64,000 bases of DNA from NCBI GenBank assembly GCA_018608245.1, contig JABAZY010000032.1, positions 1 to 64,000 of the forward strand, written 5' to 3'. The position numbers were made by a program, and so were the translations under genes. Source of the stretch: Alphaproteobacteria bacterium. GTDB lineage: Bacteria > Pseudomonadota > Alphaproteobacteria > Micavibrionales > Micavibrionaceae. This document shows, in pieces, positions 61,101 through 64,000 of the stretch (the first letter of the stretch is position 1; each line of letters starts with the position of its first letter). The notes under the pieces were generated by a model. That model was not told where the DNA came from. It was given only the letters and a program-made list of their open reading frames with translations, and searched no databases.

Positions 61101-61403
61101 ATGACTCTAACATTTTTAAAAGATGATGAAGTTTTATCAGGAAAGGCTGTGGTTTATTCTGACACGTTAATGAGCTTAATAATTCATGCAAAAGATAATG
61201 GTGGTAACATTAGGTGTATTGTTTCTGGAGAAGCTGTGGGTGATAATTACAATGATGATCAATTGCCGATTCCTAATGACAATACTTTAAATGATTTGAA
61301 AGAAATTTTTATTGAACTGTATGAAAAGCATCAATTTTCAGAACCTAAAGATAGTTTTTCTGGGAAAGATTTAATTTTAACTAATAAAAATTTTAGTGGG
61401 TAA
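61101..61403 (+). CDS. DUF1488-like small protein inserted between pdhA and pdhB
   Basis: MTLTFLKDDEVLSGKAVVYSDTLMSLIIHAKDNGGNIRCIVSGEAVGD; starts 2 nt after the pdhA stop. Confidence 0.6.
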   Translation: MTLTFLKDDEVLSGKAVVYSDTLMSLIIHAKDNGGNIRCIVSGEAVGDNYNDDQLPIPNDNTLNDLKEIFIELYEKHQFSEPKDSFSGKDLILTNKNFSG

Positions 61404-61406
61404 GTA

Positions 61407-62834
61407 ATGACAATAGAAATTTTAATGCCGGCCTTATCGCCGACGATGACTGAAGGTAATTTGGCGAAATGGGTCAAGAAAGAGGGCGACACCGTGGAAG
61501 CGGGTGACGTCATTGCCGAAATCGAAACCGACAAAGCTACCATGGAAGTCGAAGCTGTTGATGAAGGCACAATCGGTAAAATCCTAATTGAAGAAGGCAC
61601 AGAAAACGTCGCCGTCAATACACCTATAGCTATCCTGTTAGAAGAAGGCGAAAGTGCGGATGATATTGGTGCGGCCTCAAGCGCGCCAGCCCCAGCACAA
61701 TCTGCACCAGCAGAATCTGTGTCTGTAACAATGTCTACAGAGGTGGCTTCACAACCATCAGGCGCAAATATTGAAAACCGCGATATCTTATACGCCCAAG
61801 GCCACGTGATTGAGCCACCCGTTTATGACGAGGCGCCCTTCATGGCCTCCACAAAAATAATGACCGTCCGTGAAGCATTGCGTGAAGGCATGAGTGAGGA
61901 AATGCGCGCCGACAACGACATCTTCATGATGGGTGAGGAAATCGCCGAGTATAACGGCGCGTATAAAGTTACCCAAGGTATGCTGGATGAATTTGGCGAT
62001 AAACGTATCATCGATACGCCCATCACCGAGCATGGTTTTGCGGGTATGGGCGTTGGTGCCGCGATGAACGGCCTCAAGCCTATTGTTGAGTTCATGACCT
62101 TCAACTTTGCCATGCAAGCGATTGACCACATCATCAACTCAGCCGCTAAAACGCTATACATGGCAGGCGGACAGCTTGGCTGTCCTATCGTCTTCCGTGG
62201 ACCAAATGGCTCAGCTTCTCGTGTGGGTGCGCAACATTCACAGTGCTATGCCTCATGGTATGCGCATGTGCCTGGTCTAAAAGTCGTCTCCCCATGGAGC
62301 GCCGCTGATGCCAAAGGCTTAATGAAATCAGCTATCCGTGATCCTAACCCAATCGTATTCTTGGAAAACGAACTTATGTATGGCCAAAGTTTCGAAGTCC
62401 CAACCGATGATGATTACACCATTCCCTTAGGGCGCGCGAAAATCGAACGCGAAGGCTCAGATGTTACAATCGTTGCTTTCTCTATCATGGTAGGACGTGC
62501 TTTAGAAGCGGCTGAGAAATTAGCAGAGCAGGGCATTGACGCGGAAGTCATCAACCTCCGCACAATCCGCCCACTGGATCGCTACACAATTCTTGAAAGC
62601 GTCAAAAAGACCAACCGCATCGTGTCATGCGAAGAAGGTTGGGGCTTTGCAGGTATAGGCTCAGAAATTGCTGCGCTTATCGGCGAACATGCCTTTGATT
62701 ATCTGGACGCACCATTAAAGCGCGTCTGCGCCGCCGATGTGCCATTACCATACGCCGCAGGCCTAGAGCAGCTCGCCGTGCCGCAAACGGATCAAATTAT
62801 CCACGCAGCAAAAGAGGTTTGTTATGTTGACTGA
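61407..62834 (+). CDS. pdhB: Pyruvate dehydrogenase E1 beta subunit with N-terminal lipoyl domain
   Basis: [15 protein letters not shown] lipoyl motif; [33 protein letters not shown]. Confidence 0.96.
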
Positions 62835-62843
62835 TAGCTTAAG

Positions 62844-63011
62844 TTATAGAAGTTCAAATCTTCTGGCGGCTTTACGCTCACTTTTAGTGAGCGTGTTTGG
62901 GCTACTAAGGGCATCAGGACCTTTTCTATCAACTCGGGCTGATACCGCGGCATGTTTTTTTCTTAAGGCTGTTTCTCTTCGCCCCGCTTTACGTCTTGGA
63001 TTATGTTTCAT
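62844..63011 (-). CDS. 55-aa highly basic ORF, not in supplied track
   Basis: MKHNPRRKAGRRETALRKKHAAVSARVDRKGPDALSSPNTLTKSERKAARRFELL; promoter-like TTGACA at 63068-63063 upstream. Confidence 0.6.
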   Translation of the reverse strand: MKHNPRRKAGRRETALRKKHAAVSARVDRKGPDALSSPNTLTKSERKAARRFELL

Positions 63012-63057
63012 ACTTTACAACTTTCAAAATATTTTGAAAAAAATATATAATCATGGT

Positions 63058-63083
63058 TATTCTGTCAATAGAATGAGTTCTAT
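63058..63083 (-). promoter_or_regulatory. Palindromic operator plus -35 of the 55-aa ORF (copy 1)
   Basis: TATTCTGTCAATAGA repeat; ATAGAA-TGAG-TTCTAT palindrome abutting minus-strand TTGACA. Confidence 0.6.
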
Positions 63084-63085
63084 AA

Positions 63086-63147
63086 CAGCTCGCTGTGCCG
63101 CAAACAGATCAAATTATCCATGCGGCAAAGGAGGTCTGTTATGTTGA
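63086..63147 (+). pseudogene. Duplicated remnant of the pdhB 3' end
   Basis: 62-nt match to 62769-62830 with 6 differences, all synonymous in the pdhB frame. Confidence 0.9.
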
Positions 63148-63151
63148 TTCA

Positions 63152-63493
63152 TTATGCAACAGCTGAGTCAGGATTTGCTGGCGTTAAAGGTGTGCCCGGT
63201 CCTGCTGGTGCCTCGAATTTACCGTCAAATAAATGTTCAATTGCAAGATTTTCAAGATTCGTAAGTACGATTTGTTGTTTAGTTGGGTGCGTATTTGTTG
63301 GTAAACCGCGTAAAACATTTGAATTCATTTCATCACTTAAGCCTGTTGCTTCTTTGGCAGCTAGGCGTCCCGTTAAAGCGGTACTGACGATGCTATCAAA
63401 GTTTGTTGGCTTATCAGCTACCCTAAAATCGTGTATAAAGTTTAAAACATCTTGTGCGATCTCTAATTTAGGCGCCTTAACTTTTTTAGCCAT
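63152..63493 (-). CDS. Hypothetical 113-aa protein between pdhB and pdhC
   Basis: MAKKVKAPKLEIAQDVLNFIHDF...; RBS AGAAAGAGGA; start placed at 63493 rather than the track's 63568. Confidence 0.75.
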   Translation of the reverse strand: MAKKVKAPKLEIAQDVLNFIHDFRVADKPTNFDSIVSTALTGRLAAKEATGLSDEMNSNVLRGLPTNTHPTKQQIVLTNLENLAIEHLFDGKFEAPAGPGTPLTPANPDSAVA

Positions 63494-63557
63494 AACTCGT
63501 CCTCTTTCTAATTTACTTAATAAAAATAATAATTTTCGGAAAATACATAACAAAAAG

Positions 63558-63584
63558 TATTCTGTCAATAGAGATAGCTCTATT
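63558..63584 (-). promoter_or_regulatory. Palindromic operator plus -35 of the 113-aa ORF (copy 2)
   Basis: Identical 15-mer TATTCTGTCAATAGA; AATAGAG-ATAG-CTCTATT palindrome abutting minus-strand TTGACA. Confidence 0.6.
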
Positions 63585-63619
63585 TTCTTGAAAGGGTGTT
63601 ACAGATGGGCGTTGTAAGT

Positions 63620-63829
63620 TTAAGAATCGGCGTTAAGGCATTTCCAGCAAACGCAATCATTAAGGGCATTAATTTTTACCGTATTAAGATTACTGGCCAA
63701 CTTTTGTGGAATAGGAGCATTAGTGGCAAGTTGGTAAGTTGTCCTGAAATCTTGCAATATAGGTTCGGCTTCTTTGCCAAAATGCGCTCTGATTTCGGAT
63801 TCAATTTCCCAAACTTCTGGACTATTCAT
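63620..63829 (-). CDS. Hypothetical 69-aa protein
   Basis: Consensus RBS AGGAGG 8-9 nt before ATG; TTGCAT-17-TATCTT promoter-like sequence. Confidence 0.7.
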
Positions 63830-63905
63830 AGTAATACGCCTCCTAAATCGTTATGTAATATTAAAAAGATACAACTATTATCTCATTTATGCAAGAGGGT
63901 CACTT

Positions 63906-64000
63906 ATGCCTATTAAAATTCTAATGCCTGCCTTATCACCGACGATGACCGAAGGGAATTTAGCCAAATGGCATAAATCTGAAGGGGATAGCGTTGAAGC
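63906..64000 (+). CDS. pdhC: Pyruvate dehydrogenase E2 (dihydrolipoamide acetyltransferase), N-terminal fragment
   Basis: [31 protein letters not shown] lipoyl-domain start, cut by window end. Confidence 0.9.

Follow-up and report, generated by a model that had tools for sequence, protein, structure and literature searches.

Paired palindromes at predicted minus-strand promoters as probable parts of a duplicated module in an insert between pdhB and pdhC of a Micavibrio-like bacterium

Why should a palindrome recur, 500 bp apart and each time beside a minus-strand promoter motif, inside an operon that is read from the other strand? The window analysed here, a 64,000-nt stretch of DNA, belongs to an uncultured, Micavibrio-like alphaproteobacterium (2.02 Mb, 72 contigs) and ends in the genes for pyruvate dehydrogenase subunits; its kinship with Micavibrio is taken from the named genomes in which the closest pdhB occurs. 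The 15-mer TATTCTGTCAATAGA occurs in it at 63058-63072 and again at 63558-63572, and the two copies extend into two 16-bp dyads (Table 1); repeat, dyads and spacing are exactly as an earlier note on this DNA had described them. That note read the pair as a shared operator or a conserved hairpin acting on two small genes. We argue instead that each palindrome would be the upstream end of one copy of a minus-strand promoter, one per module, and that two such modules would lie side by side in an insert between pdhB and pdhC, once an overlapping pair. Repeats, an insert, a duplicated pdhB tail, minus-strand genes that recur at this junction in relatives and an open plus strand come together here, and this surrounding frame, which the note had missed, appears to hold the wider finding: orphans on the opposite strand combined with an open operon strand.

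Table 1. Features at the pdhB-pdhC junction of the window, in order of position.
Feature	Position	Strand	Description
pdhB	61407..62834	plus	pyruvate dehydrogenase E1 beta, N-terminal lipoyl domain; Pfam Transket_pyr, Transketolase_C, Biotin_lipoyl
Tail copy 1	62763-62835	plus	pdhB 3' end; holds AAAGAGG and the ATG of relay ORF1
Relay ORF1	62824..63147	plus	107 aa; from within the pdhB stop overlap into tail copy 2
55-aa ORF, module A	62844..63011	minus	codon score -0.05, ambiguous
Promoter 1 (predicted)	63040..63068	minus	TTGACA-17-TATTTT (consensus scan)
Dyad 1	63068-63083		ATAGAATGAGTTCTAT; ATAGAA-TGAG-TTCTAT; adjoins/overlaps -35 of promoter 1; DNA fold z -3.1
Tail copy 2	63080..63152	plus	73 nt, 86% to copy 1; carries AAAGGAGG and ATG 63141
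Relay ORF2	63141..63617	plus	158 aa; shares 7 nt with ORF1, 13 nt with ORF3
113-aa orphan gene, module B	63152..63493	minus	RBS GAGGA; end flush with tail copy 2
Promoter 2 (predicted)	63540..63568	minus	TTGACA-17-TATTTT (consensus scan)
Dyad 2	63568-63583		ATAGAGATAGCTCTAT; ATAGAG-ATAG-CTCTAT; adjoins/overlaps -35 of promoter 2; DNA fold z -2.8
Relay ORF3	63605..63916	plus	103 aa; runs 11 nt into pdhC, in the ancestral stop frame of pdhB (ATGCCTATTAA)
69-aa ORF	63620..63829	minus	RBS AGGAGG; codon score 0.02; coding status uncertain
pdhC start (E2)	63906..64000	plus	SD AAGAGGG

Without the second tail copy, the insert has a longest exact repeat of 15 nt (shuffles: mean 9.9, maximum 14, 0/200) and a best 26-mer match of 22/26 (shuffle maximum 20, 0/200), and since both exceed all 200 shuffles, the local repeat is not a product of chance. 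The proposed minus-strand TTGACA with its -10 was borne out at both copies by a consensus scan, with an identical 17-nt spacer and with the dyad at an equivalent place on the -35; transcription would start from both. The compensatory exchange of an A-T for a G-C pair, on which the note had laid weight, is present in an ungapped alignment of the two copies, in which 4 of 26 positions differ, but it is weak evidence: it concerns a single pair, a gapped alignment explains the same divergence by one substitution and two indels, and a complementary outcome has a probability of about one third once both sides differ. A conserved RNA hairpin is unlikely, as the dyad precedes the predicted start, 62700-64000 yielded no terminator-like site, and no Rfam covariance model matched at E 0.1. 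The region also holds, at 62869-62887 and shortly 3' of pdhB, a perfect hairpin (CGCTCAC-TTTTA-GTGAGCG) that lacks a T-run. Exact matches in viral contigs (37), none of them followed by GAATA and none with TATTTT at 17 nt, were taken as chance.

Does the palindrome then mark a regulon? The full site, searched with up to two mismatches, is found in four places of the 2.02-Mb genome, and the exact site only at the two known copies. The dyad alone, with up to one mismatch, has 30 further genomic places against 28 for a reversed-pattern control, and the other 141 genomes of the order, across which no conservation of the dyad was found, yield three scattered single-mismatch matches, one per genome, which is about the control level. 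The dedicated regulator with a regulon is thereby lost: a genome-wide search gave two exact sites at one locus, with one-mismatch matches at control level, and thus the absence of other genomic occurrences which the note itself had named as half of what would speak against its claim. What survives of the note's reading is a pair of like minus-strand promoters, predicted from sequence, each with a dyad at its -35 and one of them preceding a gene-like ORF. A dispersed palindromic repeat of the REP or Rickettsia palindromic element type was rejected on the strength of there being two genomic copies only.

What remains of the operator is local. The dyad could be bound by a repressor of its own, for which the 113-aa protein is a candidate, and both minus-strand genes could be controlled jointly in this way; for this speak the dyads' position, touching the -35 of both predicted promoters at an equivalent place and hence suited to affect RNA polymerase, the preservation of both arms while the centre diverges, and a single-strand fold z of about -3 for both dyads. 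However, the genome has just these two sites, the one co-varying pair is lost in the indel alignment, and the 113-aa protein is without a recognisable DNA-binding domain, its single-sequence structure model (pLDDT 48) being too poor for structure comparison. We consider this model unlikely, and that the dyad is a putative local repressor-binding site at all, rather than sequence inherited around the -35, is doubtful to nearly the same degree. On the sequence as it stands, the pair of palindromes is better explained by a local module, present twice, to which the duplicated end of pdhB also belongs.

The two small genes which the note had placed behind these promoters have fared differently. The 113-aa ORF, situated between two genes that directly overlap in relatives, has gene-like codon usage (score 0.20; genes 0.27+-0.10, out of frame about -0.3 to -0.4) and a protein-like amino-acid score of 0.12, whereas the codon usage of the 55-aa ORF is ambiguous, and the latter found neither relatives in 58 genomes nor a match in Pfam. 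The 113-aa protein has no relatives in 58 and then 142 genomes, nor in phages or viral contigs, no Pfam or PADLOC match and an insignificant match in PHROG. The 69-aa ORF, for which no relatives were obtained at E<0.01, is possibly a truncated third minus-strand gene. From its place within the pdh operon, the minus-strand gene would supply a protein specific to the lineage.

The history of the junction is best read from its neighbours. Five genomes of the same genus have an 11-nt overlap of pdhB and pdhC (TATGCCNATTAA), while 1071 nt lie between the two genes in the window; by this comparison, an insert of ~1.07 kb splits a formerly overlapping pair. (A 107-nt direct repeat of 75% identity, 61395-61501 and 63894-64000, corresponds to where the lipoyl domains of pdhB and pdhC begin and is expected for paralogous domains.) From pdhB onwards, the order is tail 1, 55-aa ORF, promoter 1 with dyad 1, tail 2, which directly adjoins this dyad, 113-aa gene, promoter 2 with dyad 2, 69-aa ORF and pdhC. 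A module thus consists of a pdhB tail with SD and ATG, a minus-strand ORF and a promoter with its dyad; two are collinear and a remnant follows. The ends of the modules match at ~86% (tail 86%, promoter repeat 22/26) and the interiors do not align, for which reason the 55-aa and 113-aa modules were rejected as diverged copies of one gene. Within 63087-63148, the pdhB-coding part, the tail copies differ at seven positions, all seven of them synonymous third-position transitions, and because the differences are synonymous only, both copies have probably diverged as functional pdhB ends, for example in different strains; the simplest reading would be that one of them arrived from another strain. 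The tail test showed a second pdhB tail at none of the other junctions to which it was applied, though G012 has a short tail-like CATAAAGAGGTTTGTTATG between its insert and pdhC.

Along the plus strand, the insert is tiled by three relay ORFs, each of which starts on one stop and ends on the next start. The overlaps from pdhB through relay ORF1, ORF2 and ORF3 to pdhC measure 11, 7, 13 and 11 nt, so that every step shows the stop/start overlap or distance below ~20 nt that characterizes coupled pairs, and each relay start has a purine-rich, SD-like sequence upstream, two of these SDs being those of the pdhB tail copies. The codon and amino-acid composition of the relay ORFs is antisense-like, which makes it unlikely that they are ordinary genes. 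The three stop-free stretches which suffice to cover the insert are exceptional for antisense sequence: antisense segments of equal length from the window need 9.1 stretches on average and never fewer than four (tiling by three in 0/959, the segments overlapping), shuffles need at least seven, and real coding strands 3.2.

The same junction in relatives extends this observation. In six inserts (G001, G003, G007, G019, HKST23, G012), the frame that ends at the stop overlapping the ATG of pdhC runs through the insert without a single stop, against 5.7 to 10.7 stops per insert expected from base composition. Six of 15 inserts are open in this way against 0.24 expected (P 1.5e-8, a value that ignores shared ancestry and GC differences and applies to a frame chosen post hoc). 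As the antisense of genes is depleted of stops in one register (3.7% vs ~5.8%), the null for openness was taken from antisense stretches of this one genome's genes in the worst register. On the other side, nine of the 15 inserts are not open in the pdhC-start frame, nor is that of G076, a sixteenth, which makes ten of 16, and the insert of G032 needs four stretches though its minus-strand gene is orthologous to that of G001. A further candidate, repeat D3 as a constrained plus-strand peptide, was dropped: its mismatches by codon position, 5, 4 and 7, are uninformative.

In many genomes of the family, pdhB and pdhC are separated by 200-1800 nt, and many of these junctions carry small minus-strand ORFs convergent with pdhB; several carry plus-strand genes resembling those of secreted proteins. 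The minus-strand orphan genes at the relatives' junctions are unrelated to those of the window, and two small families of them recur at the junction between genera. The proteins of G001 and G032 are 42% identical over 174 aa, partly across the overlap with pdhB, and without this part still 38% (E 2e-25), with a weaker relative located at the pdh junction of G076; those of G019 and G035 match at E 4e-7. When the G001 and G019 proteins were searched for in 142 genomes, every match lay at a pdh junction. Profile comparison of the 113-aa protein with both families was negative, and by this measure it belongs to neither and remains an orphan. Among single junctions, L195 (G035) has a 1.8-kb insert with four tandem minus-strand ORFs (107, 123, 77 and 165 aa) in an array-like arrangement. 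L025, L052, L045, L047 and L033 have plus-strand secreted-protein-like genes (~145-180 aa), the ends of which overlap the start of pdhC in L025, L045 and L052. The minus-strand ORF of 217 aa in L034 (G034) resembles, by eye, a uracil phosphoribosyltransferase.

Taken together, these features suggest a junction akin to a noncontiguous operon, in which the plus strand is kept translatable for the coupling of pdhB to pdhC. Ribosomes would be handed from PdhB to PdhC via the relay ORFs, which we suppose to be translated, and the pdh mRNA would be read by ribosomes throughout the insert. We give this reading as a whole an even chance; that openness reflects selection for coupling, and not for escape from Rho or something else, is our conjecture. 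Counting against it, pdhC has an SD of its own, so that coupling may not be needed, and the 55-aa ORF is not clearly coding. More tentative still, and somewhat against the balance of probability, is the generalization that pdhB-pdhC in Micavibrio-like bacteria is a site at which opposite-strand orphans come and go, while selection keeps the relay ORFs readable, one stretch of DNA being a gene when read one way and a translated bridge when read the other.

A plainer history would do without coupling: two alleles of one variable junction were joined in tandem by recombination, the promoters are unregulated, and openness stems from codon bias and chance. The common ends and unrelated interiors of the modules, the purely synonymous divergence of the tails and the stop-poor antisense register all suit such a duplication, which we nevertheless hold to be improbable, about as much so as the repressor, since the openness exceeds the antisense null both in the window and across relatives, and since it is the frame running into the pdhC start that is open in all six inserts free of stops. 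The reverse assignment, with ordinary operon genes on the plus strand and their shadows on the minus strand, is very unlikely: SDs are present, neighbours are overlapped, and L025, L052, L045 and L047 do carry plus-strand secreted-protein-like genes at the junction, but the usage of the relay ORFs is antisense-like, the minus-strand ORFs of 113 aa, of G019 and of HKST23 are protein-like, and it is the minus-strand proteins that are conserved between genera. Equally hard to credit is a chimeric contig joining two strain versions of the junction, for although the tail copies resemble alleles of two strains, the genome is in 72 contigs and its named relatives are mostly metagenome bins, the joint of dyad 1 and tail copy 2 has ~3 nt of common sequence, too short for a k-mer join, and inserts at pdhB-pdhC occur independently in many other genomes.

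What was taken for a two-site regulon is thus recast as the duplication of a local module. Were the bridging of pdhB and pdhC by the relay ORFs true, an operon of coupled genes could tolerate an opposite-strand gene by translating otherwise meaningless antisense frames, a function would be found for antisense ORFs that annotation discards, and there would be a testable rule on where orphan genes can settle in operons. How does the junction compare with known systems? With a repressor-operator pair at a sigma-70 promoter it shares a dyad that meets the -35, here of two promoters; it differs in having two sites only, with no further ones in the genome and no regulator gene identified. Closer is the noncontiguous operon menE-menC-MW1733-ytkD-MW1731 of Staphylococcus aureus, in which an opposite-strand gene lies within the operon and the antisense pairs with an internal untranslated region (PMC7154746). 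In both cases, a gene of opposite orientation sits between operon genes and its mRNA would be antisense to that of the operon; in contrast to the staphylococcal case, the operon strand here could, judging from its sequence, be translated throughout the insert, and unrelated genes take the opposite-strand place in different species. Generally, overlapping stop/start pairs couple translation, and an intergenic distance of ~20 nt nearly abolishes coupling in E. coli and Haloferax (PMC10666635). The pdh junction resembles such termination-reinitiation pairs in its start/stop overlaps, which the relay ORFs retain, and in the neighbouring operon genes for subunits of one complex; what sets it apart is that the overlap would here be kept by interposed ORFs which are without gene-like composition and antisense to other ORFs.
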